The notes beneath the pieces were generated by a model. It did no database searches. It saw only the letters and a list, made by a program, of their open reading frames with translations, and was not told the DNA's origin. Source: Chloroflexia bacterium SDU3-3 (GTDB lineage: Bacteria > Chloroflexota > Chloroflexia > Chloroflexales > Roseiflexaceae). Taken from it: 64,000 nucleotides of DNA. The DNA is taken from positions 62,001-126,000 of the forward strand of contig WBOU01000007.1 of the NCBI GenBank assembly GCA_009268125.1. The letters run 5' to 3'. Shown one piece after another: positions 23,419 through 31,390 of the stretch (its first letter is position 1; every line of letters begins with the position of its first letter). Made by a program: the position numbers and the translations under genes.

Positions 23419-25542
23419 TCACTTGCGGCCAAACAGCCCGCGCTTCTTGGGCTGCTCGACCGACTGCCGCAGCCGGTCGAGTCCGCCGCCACCCTCCTGC
23501 TGGGTTGGCTCCGACGGCGGCGGGGCGGTGGGGATGACCGCCACCGCAGTGATCGGCTCCTCTTCCTGCTTGCCCTTCTTGCCGCGCTTTTTCTTCTTAC
23601 CATCGTCCTCTGGTGCTGCCGCTGGGGGCGGGGACGCGGCGATTTTGGCATCCACCGGCTGGGCGGTGGGCTGCTCCTCGTGCTCGGGGGCTGCCGGGAA
23701 GGTATTGATCTCCATGATCTCGCGTAGCGGCTCGGCGGCCTCGTAGGGCATCGTGCCGCTCTCGGCCCCCAGGGCCACCAGCCACTCCCAGAGCGCGCGC
23801 TGCCGATCCAGGGGGGCGATCGGCAGGCGCAGCGGCCTGCCGCGTGCGTCGATCACCACGCCCAGCGCGCTGCCGCTGATGTCCGCCGGGCCGGTCTCGA
23901 TCGAGGCCCCGGGTGCATTGCCGCCGATCCGCACGCCGCCTGCGGGCTTTAGGATGAGCTGACCCTTCTGGCCCTGCGGCAGATCCAGCCGGGCGATCTG
24001 GCCATGGTTCACCGTCACCGTCTGCTCGCCGCCGCCCACGGTGCGCAGCGTGGCCTCAACCGCCAGCTCGCCGCTGCGGCCCGGGCCTAGCGCCACCACG
24101 CAGGTAGCCAGCGGCATGTTGCGCAGCAGATCCTGCTCGATCAGCGAGAGCGCTCCCTCGGCATCGCTGGGGGCCAGCGCGCCTGCGGTGTTCACCAGTC
24201 CCAGGGTGTCGAGGTAGATGTCGATAGCGCGCTCGTCGGCCAGTGGCTGCAGCGCATCCAGCAGCGTCAGCAGCGCATAGCCGGGGTGGGGCGCGTGCGA
24301 GAGCACGCCGCCGCTGGCCAGCACGAAGTCGAAGGGCGCGCCTGGGCGCTCGTCGAACAGCGCTGCGGCGGTGAGCGCCACCGCCTCGCGGGCCACCGCG
24401 TGCTCGATCATCACATCCTCGCGGCTGGTGGGCACCAGCTGGGGGCGCAGCTGCTTGTTCAGCAGGCTGTGCAGCATGTCCTGATCGCTGATCGGGAAGG
24501 GCAGCCAGCGCATGAAGGCCGATGTGCCGCGCTCGGCCACCAGATGCCCCACGCCATAGCCGCTGCCGATAGCGCCAAGCACCGCCGCGCTAAACGCACC
24601 CTGGCTGGAGAGCAGCGCGCTGGTGCTGGCCGAGCCGAGGTCGATAGCCAGGATGTTCCTGCCGTAGAAATCGGCCAGGAAGCGGGTGATCAGGCCTGCG
24701 GCATCGGTGGTGGTGCGGATGGGCACTGTGCTGACCCGCCGCAGATTCTGCAGGCCGGGCATGCGGCGCAGGATGCGCTCGGTGTAGAGCTTGGTGAGCG
24801 CCTTGCGGGTCGGTGCGAGGTTGGCCTTATCCAGCGACGGGCGCAGGTTCTCGACCACGATCGGCTCGGCCTTGTTCGCCAGCGACTCGACGACCTGCTC
24901 GCTAGCCCTGCTGTTGCCGGCGTAGATCACGGGGCGCACCGTCACATCGTGGCGCGACTGCCCGTCGGCATCTACCCGCGCCGAGAGCGCCGTGAGCCCG
25001 ATGATATGCGCCAGACGCACCAGTGAATCCTGCGCGCCCTGCTCAAGGCCACCCGCCAGGATGACCACATCGGGGTTCAGGCCGATCATGCGCTGGACCT
25101 GCCGCTCGATCCACGAGTAGTCGCCGGTGGCCACGCTGTGCTCGGTCGCGTCGTTCAGCGTGATCGTCTGCAGCACCACCGAATTGACGGCGCGGCTGGC
25201 GTGCAGCGCGCTGCGGGCCGAGATATCGCTTGAGACCGCAGTGACCACGATCGCCATCGGCCCCGCCGCGCTGGTGACGGTGATCAGGTGGTCGATGCCG
25301 TCGCCATCATTTGTCCGAGGCATCAGCAGATTCTCGCCCAGCAGCAGCTGTCGCCCAGTCAGATCGCTGATCGCTGCGGCAGCCTGGATGATCGAGACCA
25401 TCACATCGCTATGCGGCGGCTCATAGGTGCTGGGCACCTCGGCCTGGGCGATCAGGCGCAGCTGGCCCGCCACGTGGTCGGTGAGAGTCGCACGGGTGGT
25501 CACGCTGCCGATATCGATGATAAGTGTCGCAGAATTTGGCAT
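23419..25542 (-). CDS. MutL-like (glutamate mutase accessory family) ASKHA ATPase
   Basis: I start the 707-residue protein at ATG 25542 (MPNSATLIIDIGSVTTRATL). Two actin-fold phosphate-1 motifs are visible, IDIGSVTTRA near residue 8 and LAIDLGSASTSALLS near residue 300, with the domain-level features VVILAGGLEQGAQD and FVLASGGVLSHAPHPGYA. This matches the MutL family named after the glutamate mutase operon. No mutase subunit gene (MutS/MutE) is nearby. A low-complexity tail, PPPAAAPEDDGKKKKRGKKG and later KKRGLFGRK, is basic. It is the last gene of the uncharacterised membrane operon, so a chaperone or energising role in that complex is more likely than a mutase role. Confidence 0.8.
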   Translation of the reverse strand: MPNSATLIIDIGSVTTRATLTDHVAGQLRLIAQAEVPSTYEPPHSDVMVSIIQAAAAISDLTGRQLLLGENLLMPRTNDGDGIDHLITVTSAAGPMAIVVTAVSSDISARSALHASRAVNSVVLQTITLNDATEHSVATGDYSWIERQVQRMIGLNPDVVILAGGLEQGAQDSLVRLAHIIGLTALSARVDADGQSRHDVTVRPVIYAGNSRASEQVVESLANKAEPIVVENLRPSLDKANLAPTRKALTKLYTERILRRMPGLQNLRRVSTVPIRTTTDAAGLITRFLADFYGRNILAIDLGSASTSALLSSQGAFSAAVLGAIGSGYGVGHLVAERGTSAFMRWLPFPISDQDMLHSLLNKQLRPQLVPTSREDVMIEHAVAREAVALTAAALFDERPGAPFDFVLASGGVLSHAPHPGYALLTLLDALQPLADERAIDIYLDTLGLVNTAGALAPSDAEGALSLIEQDLLRNMPLATCVVALGPGRSGELAVEATLRTVGGGEQTVTVNHGQIARLDLPQGQKGQLILKPAGGVRIGGNAPGASIETGPADISGSALGVVIDARGRPLRLPIAPLDRQRALWEWLVALGAESGTMPYEAAEPLREIMEINTFPAAPEHEEQPTAQPVDAKIAASPPPAAAPEDDGKKKKRGKKGKQEEEPITAVAVIPTAPPPSEPTQQEGGGGLDRLRQSVEQPKKRGLFGRK

Positions 25543-25641
25543 AGATCTCGTTTTCACCAGAACATGTGCCTTGGTGCGGGCAATGCGCCCGCACCAAGGC
25601 ACTAGCGATGTTTGACTCCATCCGCTCGGCGCGCGGTGGGC

Positions 25642-26268
25642 CTACCAGGTGATCAGGAAGCGCACGCGCTCGCTCAGCGCCGCGAGGTAGGTCTGCACCG
25701 CGCTGGCGAAGAAGAAGCCGAATGCGATCATGAGCACCCAGTGGCCCAGCACCGCTGCCCGCTGCACCAGCTGGCCGACGGGCGTTTTCTGATTGGTGGT
25801 GAAGTAGAAGCGGCAGAGCACCGCCACGGTGCCGATGGCCAGCACGGCGACGCCAGCGATCTGGCTGATATCTTGGCCGGCAGCTTGGGCGCTTGCGCGG
25901 ATCTGCGGTACGAGCGTGCCCACCATTGCACCGCCAGCGGCCAGCGCGGCGCCCACGCCGAACACGAGCGAGAGCGGGATATTGGCCAGCCACGAGTAGC
26001 GCTGGTCGGTGGTGATGCGCGGCAGCAGCAGCACGCCAAGCACCAGGGGGACGGCGTAGAGCGTCAGGGTGGTGGCGCTCAGGTTGCTGGCCGTGGCCAG
26101 CACCGCGCGCTGCAGCACCTCTTGGTAGGCCACCACGAAGGCCAGCCCCAGCGAGACGCCGACAAACAGGTATTGCGCCACACGAAAGAAGGGGTTATCC
26201 CCAAAGATCCGGCTTAGAACCATCACGGTCAGCAGCGCGGCGATAATTTGAGCGATCAGCTGGGTCAT
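25642..26268 (-). CDS. Hypothetical integral membrane protein of the P-x-W-L operon
   Basis: This 208-residue protein contains about six hydrophobic segments (first MTQLIAQIIAALLTVMVLS, last WVLMIAFGFFFASAVQTYL) and short loops, one reading RITTDQRYSWL. I recognise no transporter or enzyme motif. It overlaps the stop of the P-x-W-[LM] protein gene by four bases (ATGA), so translation is coupled and a physical complex is plausible. The MutL-like gene follows 99 bases later. Confidence 0.75.
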   Translation of the reverse strand: MTQLIAQIIAALLTVMVLSRIFGDNPFFRVAQYLFVGVSLGLAFVVAYQEVLQRAVLATASNLSATTLTLYAVPLVLGVLLLPRITTDQRYSWLANIPLSLVFGVGAALAAGGAMVGTLVPQIRASAQAAGQDISQIAGVAVLAIGTVAVLCRFYFTTNQKTPVGQLVQRAAVLGHWVLMIAFGFFFASAVQTYLAALSERVRFLITW

Positions 26269-29200
26269 GCTTTTCTCCGTCGCGTCGCATCGACGATGGC
26301 AGCAACAATAGCTCCGACGAGCAGCAGGCTGACGAAGGCGATCATTCCCAGGCGTAGCTGCCCAGTCTCGACCGCTGCCGTGCCCTGGGCATCGCCGCGC
26401 AGCGCGGCATAGGCTAGGGCGCCCGGCGCCCCCACTAGCCCAAACACGTGCGGCTGCCGCTGGTATGGTTCGGAGGCCGGTGCGGCTTCGGCGGTCATCA
26501 GGGTGGCGAAAGGTACATCGGGCGCGGCCTGGTAGATCTGCTCCATCCAGCTCTGGATGTCGGACTGATCGTCGGCCAGCAGCATGATCATGGAGAAGTT
26601 CTTCAGGCTGGTCAGCGGCGTGTTGGTGCCGGTGGATGTTCCGAGCGCCAGCGGGCTGCTGGTCATATCCTCGCCCTGGAAGTCGGCGTTGAGCGTGTTG
26701 CCAAAGTTCTGCGCCAGCGATCGCAGGGCCAGCTCGCCGCCGGGCTGGTACCCCAGCAGCAGGTAGTCGATGCCGCTCGGGCGGTACTGCGCAGCGCTCA
26801 GCTTATCGCGTAGATCGTATAGCAGCAGCGATCCTTGCGGGTCGGTGCTCACGAGCACGAGCTTGACTTTCTGCTCGATCAGCTGGCCGACCACGCTTTG
26901 CTCCAGCGGTCGTAGCTCGGCCACTCGGCGCGCATCCCAGTCGTAGCCGATCAGCACCACATCGTTTGGCCCGAGCTTGCTGATCTGCTCGTGCAGCGCC
27001 TGGGCTTTGGTATCTGCCGCTGGGGCCTGCAGCTGGCTTGTTAGTGCGGGCACCAGCGCTCCCGCCAGCAGCACGGCGATCAGCAGCAGGTAGAGCACGC
27101 GATCGACGCTCAGGATCGAGCGGGTAGCTGGGGCCTTGGGCTCCTCTTGGCTGGCTGCCCGCGCTGGCTGCGGGTCACGGGCGATCCGCTCAAGCAGCGC
27201 GATGGCCTGCAGCTGCGACTCGGTCTTGACCGGGTTTGGCGGCGGCGCGAAGCGCGTGGTGACGACGGCCTGGGGTGTAGGGGCCTGCTCCTCTTCCTCG
27301 GTCGATCCGAGCTTGGTGAGCCAGTCGAGCGCCTTGCTCTCGGCCACCTTCTCGGGGGTGGCCTTCTGCTCGGGCTGGCGCAGCCACGCGGGCAGATCGG
27401 CTGCGCCGAAGAAGTTGGAATCGCTCTCGGCCTGCTCTGGCTCCGCCGCTGGCTCTGGCTCATCGAACCAGCCGCCGACTGCGGGCTGCGCTGGGTCTGC
27501 CGCAGGCTGCGGATCGGGCGCTGGCTGCTGTGCCTGGGCCGCCAGCGTGCTTTCGATCTCCGGGTCGAGCGTGGCGCCTTTCAGCCAGGGTGGCAGATCC
27601 TGCTCGCCAGGGCTGGATGCGCTGGGCATCGGCGCGCCGCTCTCGTCGCGCAGCCAAGGTGGCAGATCTTGGCCTCCGCCAAGTGGTTCGGGCGCTGGCT
27701 TGGGTGCTGGCTCGGGCGCTGGTGCTGGCTTGGGCGCTGGTGCGGCTGGCTCGGCCTGCACGCCGCGCATCCATGCTGGCAGGGTCTCATCCATCGGCTG
27801 CGGCGAGGCGGTCTCCGCCTCGCGGAGCCAGTCGGGCACCTCGGGCGCGCCCTGCGGCTGGCTGGCACCGGCGGGCGACTCAAGCCAGTCGGGTGTGGCT
27901 GGCTCCGGCTGCTGCCGTGGCGGTGTGTCGATCGGCAGAGCCGACTCGCTTGCCTGCAGCCAGGAGGGGACGCTCTCGTCGCGGCCTGGCTCAGTCGGCT
28001 GGGACGCCTCCTGCAGCCAGGAGGGGACGCTCTCGTCGCGGCCTGGCTCAGTCGGCTGGGACGCCTCCTGCAGCCAGGAGGGGACGCTCTCGTCGCGGCC
28101 TGGCTCAGTCGGCTGGGACGCCTCCTGCAGCCAGGATGGCGTTCCTGTTCCAGATGCCAGCAGCGGACTCTGCTCGGCGTCGTCGATACTTTCTTGTAGC
28201 CAGGGGGGGAGATCTTCACCACTGCTTGCTGCATCGTTGGCTGGCGGCAGGCTGCTAGGTGCCTCCCAGCTTGGTACGTCGCTGGATGCCGTGTCCTCAG
28301 TAGCGCTGGAGAGCCAGCTCGGCGCGTCGCTGGATGCTGTGTCCTCAGTAGCGCTGGAGAGCCAACTCGGCGCGTCGTTATCAGATAGGTCTTCGGCGGG
28401 CTGATTAGGCTGCGGTCGCGCGGGCTGCTCGCTGGCGCTAAACCAGTCAGCGGTGCCACCTGCCGAGTCATCGCTGCCAAGCCATGCGGGCGGGCCGCTT
28501 TGTGGTGCCGGTGTGCTGCTGCCGCCCATGCCCTCGAAGCTGAAGGGCTCTATCGTCGGCTCTTCATCCGTACCTTCCATTGCGGCCTTGACATCGTCCA
28601 TTGGGATGTCGTTGAGCCAGTCGTTGATGTCAAGCTTCTCTGTCGCGTAGCCTGTTTGCTCAGCTGTAGGAGTGGGGTCATCCCATAGGGTAGGCGTGGT
28701 GGGCTGCGCGGGTTCGGCTGCCACATTCCAGCTACTGCTCTCTGGTGCTGGCTCCTCGGGCTGTTCGGCCATGGCCTTCAGCCAATCCGGCACTTCCTCC
28801 GGACGGTCAAGGGGTGGATCTGCTGCGCGGGTGCTCGGCTCTGGTGCCTGCTCGCTTATGCCCTGCAGCCAGTCGGGGACGGTCTCCTCAGCCTGGGGCG
28901 CGGGGGTAGCCGCCGACTCGCGGAGCCAGTCGGGGACGGTCTCCTCAGCCTGGGGCGCGGGGGTAGCCGCCGACTCGCGGAGCCAGTCGGGGACAGCCTC
29001 CTCAGCCTGGGGCGCGGGGGCAGCCGCCGACTCGCGGAGCCAGTCGGGGACAGCCTCCTCAGCCTGGGGCGCGGGGGTAGCCGCCGACTCGCGGAGCCAG
29101 TCGGGGATGGTCTCCTCAGCCTGGGGCGCGGAGGTAGCCGCCGACTCGCGGAGCCAGTCGGGAAGCGTCTCGCTTTGCTGAGGCGCAGCCGGGCTAGCCC

Positions 29201-29372
29201 CGCTTAGCCAGTCGGGCACCGCATTGCTAGGTGCGCTAGCATCGCTGGGCGCCGCCTGCCAAGATGCCGCACGTTCGGCGTGGCCCGCCTGCGATGCTGG
29301 TTTCGGCGGCAGCGGCTGATCGCGCAGCCATGGAGGTAGGTTTGTGTTTGTATCAGATGGATCGCGGTTCAC
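26265..29372 (-). CDS. Large scaffold-like protein with an array of P-x-W-[LM] motifs and membrane C-terminus
   Basis: The 1,035-residue protein has a proline/acid-rich N-terminal region of about 730 residues that contains 23 copies of a P-x-W-[LM] motif (PDWLRES, PSWLQEA, PPWLRD, PAWMRG types). They sit at intervals of about 15-60 residues, many in exact tandem repeats. A membrane segment (LLIAVLLAGALVPALTS, residues ~760-778), a folded domain of about 220 residues (NDVVLIGYDWDARRVAEL, KLVLVSTDPQGS), and a second membrane segment with an RRRKA tail follow. By the positive-inside rule the motif array would be cytosolic and the folded domain outside. Short regularly spaced motifs suggest multivalent docking. 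No domain is recognised. Confidence 0.8.
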   Translation of the reverse strand: MNRDPSDTNTNLPPWLRDQPLPPKPASQAGHAERAASWQAAPSDASAPSNAVPDWLSGASPAAPQQSETLPDWLRESAATSAPQAEETIPDWLRESAATPAPQAEEAVPDWLRESAAAPAPQAEEAVPDWLRESAATPAPQAEETVPDWLRESAATPAPQAEETVPDWLQGISEQAPEPSTRAADPPLDRPEEVPDWLKAMAEQPEEPAPESSSWNVAAEPAQPTTPTLWDDPTPTAEQTGYATEKLDINDWLNDIPMDDVKAAMEGTDEEPTIEPFSFEGMGGSSTPAPQSGPPAWLGSDDSAGGTADWFSASEQPARPQPNQPAEDLSDNDAPSWLSSATEDTASSDAPSWLSSATEDTASSDVPSWEAPSSLPPANDAASSGEDLPPWLQESIDDAEQSPLLASGTGTPSWLQEASQPTEPGRDESVPSWLQEASQPTEPGRDESVPSWLQEASQPTEPGRDESVPSWLQASESALPIDTPPRQQPEPATPDWLESPAGASQPQGAPEVPDWLREAETASPQPMDETLPAWMRGVQAEPAAPAPKPAPAPEPAPKPAPEPLGGGQDLPPWLRDESGAPMPSASSPGEQDLPPWLKGATLDPEIESTLAAQAQQPAPDPQPAADPAQPAVGGWFDEPEPAAEPEQAESDSNFFGAADLPAWLRQPEQKATPEKVAESKALDWLTKLGSTEEEEQAPTPQAVVTTRFAPPPNPVKTESQLQAIALLERIARDPQPARAASQEEPKAPATRSILSVDRVLYLLLIAVLLAGALVPALTSQLQAPAADTKAQALHEQISKLGPNDVVLIGYDWDARRVAELRPLEQSVVGQLIEQKVKLVLVSTDPQGSLLLYDLRDKLSAAQYRPSGIDYLLLGYQPGGELALRSLAQNFGNTLNADFQGEDMTSSPLALGTSTGTNTPLTSLKNFSMIMLLADDQSDIQSWMEQIYQAAPDVPFATLMTAEAAPASEPYQRQPHVFGLVGAPGALAYAALRGDAQGTAAVETGQLRLGMIAFVSLLLVGAIVAAIVDATRRRKA
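27955..28125 (-). repeat. Three identical 57-bp tandem repeats (PSWLQEA type)
   Basis: Copies begin at 27955, 28012 and 28069 and are identical; a partial fourth begins at 28126. Each encodes 19 residues containing SVPSWLQEASQPTEPGRDE. Exact identity suggests recent expansion. Confidence 0.9.
28291..28376 (-). repeat. 48-bp tandem repeat (PSWLSS type)
   Basis: Two near-identical 48-bp units encode 16 residues with APSWLSSATEDTASSD. They lie within the P-x-W-[LM] array. Confidence 0.8.
28867..29168 (-). repeat. About five 57-bp tandem repeats (PDWLRES type)
   Basis: Units start about every 57 bp (28869, 28926, 28983, 29040, 29097, 29154) and each encodes 19 residues of the PDWLRESAATPAPQAEE form with few changes. 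The period equals that of the unrelated array at 27955-28125. Confidence 0.88.
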
Positions 29373-29473: not shown

Positions 29474-30157
29474 CTACCGGTCAAGAAATGGCTGATCGAA
29501 CCCAAGCAGCACTCGTATGCCGGCAACTAATGCGCCGATGGCACTGCCCAACAGCAGCCCGCGTGCACCCGCTAGAACAAGGTAATCGTTGATCCAGGCA
29601 ATGCTCGACCCCACAAATGGCAGCATATCCAGGGATGGCACAGCGGTGATCAGAAGCACCACCAGCGCCACCACCACGATGACGATCGCGTCGAGGCTGC
29701 GCTTGCGCACGGCGCGCAGCGCGGCGCTCAGGCTAAAAAAGGCCAGCAGCGCCAGAAACGACGATGCGAGCGGCTGATAGACCGTATTAAAGATGGCGCG
29801 AATGGGTTTTTCGATCAGGCTGCGCGGCAGCACAAACCCGGTGCTCCCATCATCCGAGAACACGGGTGAGAAGATCGTGCCGACGATGATCGTGATCAGC
29901 ATGGCGGCCAGCAGCAGCACGCTATAGCCCCAGTCCGAGTCGCGCTTTCTGATCCGCCCAACGTGGCTCGTGACCACGTTGATCAGTCCGACTACCAGGG
30001 CTACTGCCGTCACAATAGCAGCCCAGTTCACCAGCAGCTGGGCGATGCCTCCTACCTGCGGGAGTGATATGACAAGGTCGATGAGAACAATCAACCCTGC
30101 GACGCCAGCGATGATCGTTGCCAGCAGCCGTTTTGGATCGCGGAAGAGAGAAGACAT
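29474..30157 (-). CDS. Hypothetical integral membrane protein of the P-x-W-L operon
   Basis: The 227-residue protein starts at ATG 30157 (MSSLFRDPKRLLATI). It has six hydrophobic segments with a charged loop (SHVGRIRKRDSDWGYS) and a polar loop (FSDDGSTGFVLPRSLIEKPI). No motif of a known family is evident. It sits between the 30283-31059 gene and the P-x-W-[LM] gene on the same strand with gaps of 101-125 bases. Confidence 0.75.
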   Translation of the reverse strand: MSSLFRDPKRLLATIIAGVAGLIVLIDLVISLPQVGGIAQLLVNWAAIVTAVALVVGLINVVTSHVGRIRKRDSDWGYSVLLLAAMLITIIVGTIFSPVFSDDGSTGFVLPRSLIEKPIRAIFNTVYQPLASSFLALLAFFSLSAALRAVRKRSLDAIVIVVVALVVLLITAVPSLDMLPFVGSSIAWINDYLVLAGARGLLLGSAIGALVAGIRVLLGFDQPFLDR

Positions 30158-30282
30158 AGAACTCGTCTTTTTCGCGGTGATGCTGGGTATCAACACGCAT
30201 AAGCACCAAAGAAGCAGACGGCAGCCTTAGTTGCTGCACGATCTGCTTACGCCTCAGGAGTGCGTATTGTAAACCAGATCAT

Positions 30283-31059
30283 CTAGAACTGTACACCGAG
30301 CAGTCCCATCACAGTGGCCGCAATGATCGCGATGATCGTGATGGTGCGAAGCAGATCCTGGGTGAGCAGCCGCGCCTGCGGCGCTGTGGCCCGCGAGAGA
30401 TACGCCTCGGCGGCGAAGATCTCCTCGCCGATCAGCGTGCCCTCGCATGTGAGGTAGGTCAACGGCTGCGGGGTGGTGCTGGTTGCCCCCGCCATCTGGG
30501 CCACGCCGGCCTGCGCACCCACCTCGCCCGCCAGCAGAAACTCTTCGCCGAAGCTGCCAAGCATCTGGCTGGCCTCAAGCTGCTGCCGCCCGTAGATGGT
30601 GGTCATGCCCGAGGCATAGGCCATAGGGTCTTGCTGGGCCAGCATCTGCACATTCACTGGGTCGTAGTCTTGGCCAAACCCAGCCTGCTGGTACGCCTGG
30701 CGCAAGAAGCCGCGCTGGGCCAGGTGCGCCACCGCGTCGCCACTGCTGGCCAGCACCGGCGCGCCGTTGAAGGCCGCCTCGGTGGCCACCCGCTCGGCTG
30801 CCAGCAGCCCCGCGACGGTTGCCGCCGTGCTGGATCGGCTACCGATCGAGCCGCTCCCCGGCGAGACATGGATCGCGCGCCCGGTCTCCGCACCGCGCTC
30901 TAGCGCTCGCCGCATGATTGCAAGCGCAGGGATCGATCGCCGCTCGATGCGCTGTTTCCCAGATATAGCGCGGGCATGGTGGAGAAGCGTGATAAGCGCG
31001 ATGACGAAAATCGCAGCCAGAGAAAAAATCGAGAGGATTGTCTGAAGCGGTATATTCAA
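30283..31059 (-). CDS. Membrane protein of unknown function (DUF6754-like by recollection)
   Basis: The frame is open from 31185, but I prefer a TTG at 31059 (MNIPLQTILSIFSLAAIFV) with GCGAGG upstream, giving 258 residues. An N-terminal membrane segment, a central Gly/Ala/Ser-rich domain (AIHVSPGSGSIGSRSST, then LTYLTCEGTLIGEEIFAAEA) and a C-terminal membrane segment (TITIIAIIAATVMGLLG) are visible. The arrangement resembles proteins labelled DUF6754 in Anaerolineae and Chloroflexales, but that is memory and not a search. It is the first gene of the operon that ends with the MutL-like protein. Confidence 0.65.
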   Translation of the reverse strand: MNIPLQTILSIFSLAAIFVIALITLLHHARAISGKQRIERRSIPALAIMRRALERGAETGRAIHVSPGSGSIGSRSSTAATVAGLLAAERVATEAAFNGAPVLASSGDAVAHLAQRGFLRQAYQQAGFGQDYDPVNVQMLAQQDPMAYASGMTTIYGRQQLEASQMLGSFGEEFLLAGEVGAQAGVAQMAGATSTTPQPLTYLTCEGTLIGEEIFAAEAYLSRATAPQARLLTQDLLRTITIIAIIAATVMGLLGVQF

Positions 31060-31132
31060 GAGGGCCTCGCACAATTCTTTACAACGGCAGGCCGGGCAAT
31101 GGCTTTGAGTGTATCCTAAAAGAAAACGTTTG

Positions 31133-31390
31133 TCAACACTCCGGCTGATCGACCATCCGTCGTAAAGAGTGCCAGCTCTGCTCATCCCCTAGCGCGCCCA
31201 GGTAGCGCTGCCAGCCGCTGTTTGGCGCAAAGGGCTGCGCAAAAAGTGCCACCTGGCTAGCTAGCATCGCCACTGGCTCAACCGCCTCAAGGATCATACA
31301 GGCCACCCCCGCCAGCTGCTGGCGGCGGATCTGCGCCGCCAGCTCGCTTAACGTTTGCTCACGATCTTGGTTTTGCTGGCTGGGGTTCAT
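31133..31390 (-). CDS. Small hypothetical protein coupled to dtd
   Basis: The 85-residue soluble protein ([20 protein letters not shown]) overlaps the dtd stop codon by four bases (ATGA), so it is translated after dtd on the same transcript. It is Gln/Ala-rich with a hydrophobic segment ([20 protein letters not shown]) and ends at [14 protein letters not shown] do not recognise a family. The gap to the 30283-31059 gene is 73 bases. Confidence 0.6.

Follow-up and report, generated by a model that had tools for sequence, protein, structure and literature searches.

Anatomy of the array protein and its motif

The window analysed here is a stretch of 64,000 nucleotides from Chloroflexia bacterium SDU3-3 (contig WBOU01000007.1, positions 62,001 to 126,000), which lies within contig 7 of a 6.76-Mb genome. 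Its minus strand encodes a predicted membrane protein carrying a long array of the short motif P-x-W-[LM] (PxWL). The gene of this array protein is gene 3, the central one, of a five-gene operon. The features of the array protein are listed below; TPR, tetratricopeptide repeat; TM, transmembrane; pLDDT, predicted local distance difference test.

26265..29372, minus strand: PxWL-array membrane protein, 1035 amino-acid residues, GTG start (open reading frame list)
27381..29336, minus strand: PxWL array, residues 13-664, 23 motifs (motif positions and shuffles)
28867..29162, minus strand: 57-bp tandem array (PDWLRESAATPAPQAEE..), 5.2 copies, 96% (Tandem Repeats Finder)
28533..28556, minus strand: single TIEPFSFE, a second motif type, common to the TPR scaffold of Chloroflexia
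28266..28377, minus strand: 48-bp tandem array (PSWLSSATEDTASSDA), 2.3 copies (Tandem Repeats Finder)
27953..28136, minus strand: 57-bp tandem array (PSWLQEASQPTEPGRDESV), 3.2 copies, 100%, three full copies base-identical (Tandem Repeats Finder)
27381..27392, minus strand: membrane-proximal PxWL (DLPAWL), position kept across classes (column P21 of alignment A1 nearly invariant)
27054..27125, minus strand: first TM helix (AlphaFold helix 110-133 of the 395-residue C-terminal model, and sequence)
26388..27020, minus strand: Rossmann-like alpha/beta domain between both TM helices (model pLDDT above 90)
26283..26381, minus strand: second TM helix, then RRRKA (model and sequence)

The first-pass annotation had claimed 23 PxWL motifs over about 730 residues. 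Exactly 23 were counted (residues 13-661), but the span is shorter, about 650 residues. Composition-preserving shuffles of the N-terminal 640 residues gave a mean of 0.37 motifs and a maximum of 5 (20,000 trials). When one copy per tandem unit was kept, 15 motifs remained, where shuffles averaged 0.31 and reached 6 at most (50,000 trials). The recurrence of the motif is above chance. The earlier description of two different 57-bp arrays, one with three DNA-identical copies, agreed with Tandem Repeats Finder, and the two arrays are unrelated to each other. No second protein was found when the array sequence was searched against its own genome, a kind of search that low complexity makes less sensitive.

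The full motif is [DE]-[LVI]-P-[DEA]-W-L-[RKQ]-[DEG]-[LIVA]. Non-redundant contexts from Chloroflexales (299) and from other classes (120) gave the same nine-residue logo, in which position -4 is acidic, -3 hydrophobic, -2 P and -1 acidic or small; W and L follow, and then +2 is basic or polar, +3 acidic or small and +4 hydrophobic or alanine. Such a pattern resembles a short amphipathic helix with a proline cap. One PFSF-like motif is also present in several array proteins of the Roseiflexaceae group, including that of the window.

Homologues of the array protein were found in 30 of 40 relatives. The number of motifs per protein is 0 in L086, L087, L094 and L095, 2 in L047 and L048, and 63 at most (L101). 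Copy number had been predicted to vary, and it differs even among close species: 28 and 26 copies were counted in Candidatus Chloroploca, 43-45 in Herpetosiphon, 16-19 in Roseiflexus and up to 63 in a Chloroflexus-group genome. Draft contigs often end inside the array (L006, L010, L013, L015, L017, L024 and others), and array length is therefore often underestimated in public assemblies.

The motif had also been proposed to be under selection while the spacers drift, and this is borne out by comparison of eight relative pairs. Identity was 87-100% at the P, W and L of the motif, 45-94% in the motif flanks and 38-82% in the spacers. Nonsynonymous to synonymous differences were 25:190 at P and L codons of the motif versus 254:335 at P and L codons of the spacers (Fisher p 1.5e-18, an optimistic value, some species occurring in more than one pair). 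These comparisons show that purifying selection acts on the motif codons.

The general architecture of the array protein is a zinc ribbon in some members, an array of 0 to 63 motifs, a TM helix, a Rossmann-like domain and a second TM helix. Proteins from Herpetosiphonaceae, from the f2 family and from most other classes have a CxxC...CxxC zinc ribbon at the N-terminus. The examined proteins of Roseiflexaceae and Chloroflexaceae are without it and start instead with a conserved LPPWLRxxPLPPxP motif. The C-terminal domain has named relatives in Roseiflexus, Kouleothrix, Chloroflexus, Oscillochloris, Candidatus Chloroploca and Herpetosiphon, which places the genome of the window in Chloroflexales, closest to the Roseiflexaceae group. 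For the protein of the window, Pfam and NCBIfam profiles detected no family above cut-off in any part; a Pfam Excisionase match below cut-off fell on repeat units and was rejected as chance.

The last 395 residues were modelled with AlphaFold from a 26-sequence alignment, giving two TM helices with a confident six-stranded Rossmann-like domain between them. The membrane-proximal part of the tail that the model covers (residues 641-710) had a mean pLDDT of 42-57 per block and formed short helical turns where the motifs lie. The rest of the N-terminal tail was judged by its composition to be disordered. Comparison of the inter-TM domain with the PDB gave Foldseek E values of 0.02 or worse and a best VIA-align Z score of 8.8 with many Rossmann folds tied, that is, generic Rossmann matches and no clear PDB relative. 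Because arginines precede the first TM helix and RRRKA follows the second, the positive-inside pattern of charges suggests that both termini are cytoplasmic and that the alpha/beta domain is outside the cell.

The five-gene operon

The other four genes of the operon are as follows.

30283..31185, minus strand: operon gene 1, DUF6754 protein (PF20539), TM-alpha/beta-TM (Pfam E 3e-34; model pLDDT 93; synteny)
29474..30196, minus strand: operon gene 2, polytopic membrane protein (synteny)
25642..26268, minus strand: operon gene 4, polytopic membrane protein, 4-bp overlap with the array gene (open reading frame list; synteny)
23419..25602, minus strand: operon gene 5, MutL-family (PF13941) ASKHA-type ATPase with a basic C-terminal tail (Pfam E 5e-63; synteny)

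The five genes are found in identical order throughout Chloroflexales and in other Chloroflexota classes. The product of gene 1 is a member of DUF6754, a family with no known function, scoring 118.6 bits against a gathering score of 27. Of 301 Chloroflexota genomes searched, 67 gave a DUF6754 match; none of 14 control genomes did. Its predicted model has a generic Rossmann-like fold without a clear PDB relative, and profile comparison of DUF6754 with the C-terminal domain of the array protein detected no similarity.

The product of gene 5 is by profile a clear member of the MutL/GlmL family, which includes the accessory ATPase of glutamate mutase. It differs from this system in that glutamate mutase subunit E (PF06368) was above cut-off in 0 of 8 operon-bearing genomes, and that the NCBIfam GlmL equivalogs scored far below cut-off. 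As MutL is single copy in the genome of the window and subunit E was not found in the eight operon genomes, the textbook GlmL role is inapplicable here, and glutamate mutase was rejected as the MutL partner. In Chloroflexales other than Herpetosiphonaceae, most MutL tails terminate with the conserved sequence LRxxVExPKKRGxFxRK, which may be a membrane or docking peptide in its own right. MutL-family genes were also observed in genomes with no detectable DUF6754 or array C-terminal domain (G060, G085 and other f24/f43 genomes). MutL is followed, outside Chloroflexales, by a sixth gene encoding 350-400 amino-acid residues (L090:3065-4120, L092:15886-16977, L084:17657-18877); its product gave only weak barrel-sandwich-like matches (RnfC_N, NQRA_N) and a weak KOW match.

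The motif on other proteins

The MutL C-terminal tails of three Herpetosiphonaceae genomes (L044, L046, L050) carry two PxWL motifs each (IPDWLREEG, LPDWLSGLD; MPEWLRQDL, VPSWMLDAP). A second array protein was reached through a degenerate DNA pattern for [DE]-[LIVMF]-P-[DE]-W-L. In classes other than Chloroflexia, this protein has 4-22 PxW[LMIV] motifs with TPR repeats on both sides, and its gene is unlinked to the operon. The genome of the window encodes an orthologue of this TPR scaffold with 1544 residues (contig 2, 174337-178968; G000, L216:4338-8969; E 9e-38). Its linker contains 17 copies of [DE]-[LVM]-x-P-F-S-[LF]-[DE]-[DE]-[LF], also written PFS[LF]xxLGLS. All nine array-bearing Chloroflexia TPR orthologues examined have this PFS[LF] type in 8-32 copies, and one of them adds three PxW motifs.

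A gene for a Roadblock/LC7 protein (PF03259, as in MglB) comes after the TPR scaffold gene in 8 of the 9 Chloroflexia orthologues, the ninth being cut by a contig end. This gene is tied to the PFS[LF]-type scaffold and not to the PxWL operon. In the genome of the window, genes for a Roadblock/LC7 protein and a nucleoside diphosphate kinase come after the scaffold gene. Among PDWL-bearing TPR orthologues of other classes, the nucleoside diphosphate kinase gene is next in those checked, and no Roadblock gene was detected.

Over the 301 Chloroflexota genomes, and ignoring phylogenetic relatedness, the DNA pattern had a mean of 4.30 matches in the 67 genomes with DUF6754 versus 1.24 for a reversed control pattern (Wilcoxon p 1.3e-7), and a mean of 1.20 versus 1.29 in the 234 genomes without it (p 0.64). 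The genome-wide excess of the motif is confined to genomes with the operon. Twenty-four genomes were tabulated, again ignoring relatedness. Wherever the membrane protein has three or more motifs (19 genomes), the TPR scaffold carries a PxW or PFS array; where the membrane protein is missing or lacks the motif (5 genomes), no such array is present.

Motif-bearing proteins were also found in two genomes where the operon was not detected, with no match to DUF6754, MutL or the C-terminal domain in either. G200 encodes a carrier with a zinc ribbon, 2 motifs and a TM helix (L237 1203-1943). G118 encodes a TPR protein of 389 residues with 4 motifs between its TPR regions and a TM protein with 2 motifs (L236 960-2126, L242 1092-1802), and its unit FSAEELGIDEEELPDWLRG resembles a fusion of both motif types. 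A search of eight genomes without a detected operon using alignment A1, run with no positive control, gave no match. In G007, a genome of about 3 Mb from the family of the window, DUF6754 and MutL were not found and the TPR homologue carries neither motif type. The searched genomes of genus g8 (about 3 Mb, same family) gave no array protein. Loss of the whole system in this reduced G007/g8 lineage is possible.

A probable docking tail and its candidate reader

The array is probably a multivalent, membrane-tethered docking tail that is read by a soluble partner; we infer the binding, the topology and the clustering. This reading is supported by the motif count well beyond that of shuffled sequence, the selection on motif codons, the logo common to Chloroflexales and other classes, the conserved operon, the further motif carriers, the joint presence of arrays on the membrane protein and the TPR scaffold, and the motif excess restricted to operon-bearing genomes. 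Two TM helices would anchor the protein, and the long, probably disordered N-terminal tail, on the putative cytoplasmic side, would display many copies of the motif for the soluble partner to read. Because the copies would be interchangeable, tandem duplication would raise or lower their count while selection holds each motif. The tail may thus cluster a soluble scaffold or client at an operon-encoded membrane complex, which would consist of DUF6754, the two polytopic proteins and the array protein, together with the MutL-type ATPase.

As for the reader, the unlinked TPR scaffold, or a partner that it shares, is the leading candidate, with the scaffold either as reader or as co-client, and we put it forward as a tentative lead. 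TPR domains commonly bind short peptides. They also flank the same motif in other classes, and in G118, where the operon was not detected, the motif is again found on one TPR protein and one TM protein. MutL is the less likely reader because it can itself carry the motif.

Several observations weigh against the docking-tail reading. In Chloroflexia, this genome included, the TPR scaffold carries PFS[LF] rather than PxWL motifs, so a shared reader is least direct there. The arrays are partly recent tandem duplications. The alignments of these low-complexity tails are uncertain; MAFFT tends to pair W with W, and the relatives examined are not phylogenetically independent. A large array is not essential, since the two relatives with the smallest arrays (2 motifs each, L047/L048) retain the operon.

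Instead, as the first-pass annotation hinted, the reader might be an operon partner, either the MutL-type ATPase or the cytosolic domain of DUF6754, so that the array would recruit many copies of the ATPase. In almost all genomes examined, the four neighbours do accompany the array protein, and PF13941 proteins are soluble ASKHA ATPases. However, the motif-bearing MutL of Herpetosiphonaceae fits a client better than a reader, G118 and G200 have motif proteins where the operon was not detected, and MutL is kept in the genomes of the four proteins with zero motifs (L086, L087, L094, L095). We consider an operon-encoded reader unlikely, and this part of the earlier interpretation is not supported. 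Self-association is less likely still. The W-L helices would then pair mutually or with the zinc ribbon and form a membrane condensate without a dedicated reader, which would suit the many motifs, the variable spacers and the presence of the zinc ribbon in the same chain in most classes. Yet Roseiflexaceae and Chloroflexaceae members with 17-63 motifs have no zinc ribbon, two-motif proteins occur, and selectivity at positions -4 to +4 is not limited to W and L, which suggests a folded binding site. Neutral low-complexity growth of a Pro/Ala-rich linker with W-L as passive passenger would account for the three base-identical 57-bp copies, the other tandem arrays and the differences in copy number between close species, but it is very improbable, as motif codons are held while spacer codons for the same amino acids change, 15 unlike contexts are left after repeat collapse, and the motif is found on other proteins too.

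Taking the docking tail further, a docking code across the phylum is conceivable, though we hold it with less than even confidence. PxWL on the membrane complex, PxWL or PFS[LF] on the soluble TPR scaffold and a Roadblock-tied motif switch in Chloroflexia would together build an undescribed scaffold or condensate at the membrane, with the MutL-type ATPase powering or regulating it.

Eukaryotes offer many well-studied systems of short linear motifs whose copy number evolves; to our knowledge, few are known in bacteria. A bacterial scaffold that is disordered, has conserved short repeated motifs and acts multivalently is CsoS2 of alpha-carboxysomes (PMC11365436, PMC10484944). The array protein resembles it in its repeated conserved motifs and probable disorder but is not a member of the CsoS2 family. 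CsoS2 is soluble and organises Rubisco and the shell, whereas the array protein is membrane-anchored and has a different motif. Searches of the open literature gave no description of the PxWL motif or of DUF6754, and nothing on Chloroflexi with PDWL, on Chloroflexota disorder with a zinc ribbon, on MutL, glutamate mutase and Chloroflexi together, or on Chloroflexus TPR with Roadblock. PDWL itself appeared, among the matches listed, only as unrelated abbreviations and stray sequence.

One motif is thus shared, in a poorly studied phylum, by a conserved membrane operon, a TPR scaffold and the tail of an ATPase. Its natural arrays hold 0 to 63 copies, and orthologous TPR scaffolds appear to have switched motif. 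DUF6754, a MutL-family ATPase without its mutase and several anonymous membrane proteins thereby gain a hypothesis of function.

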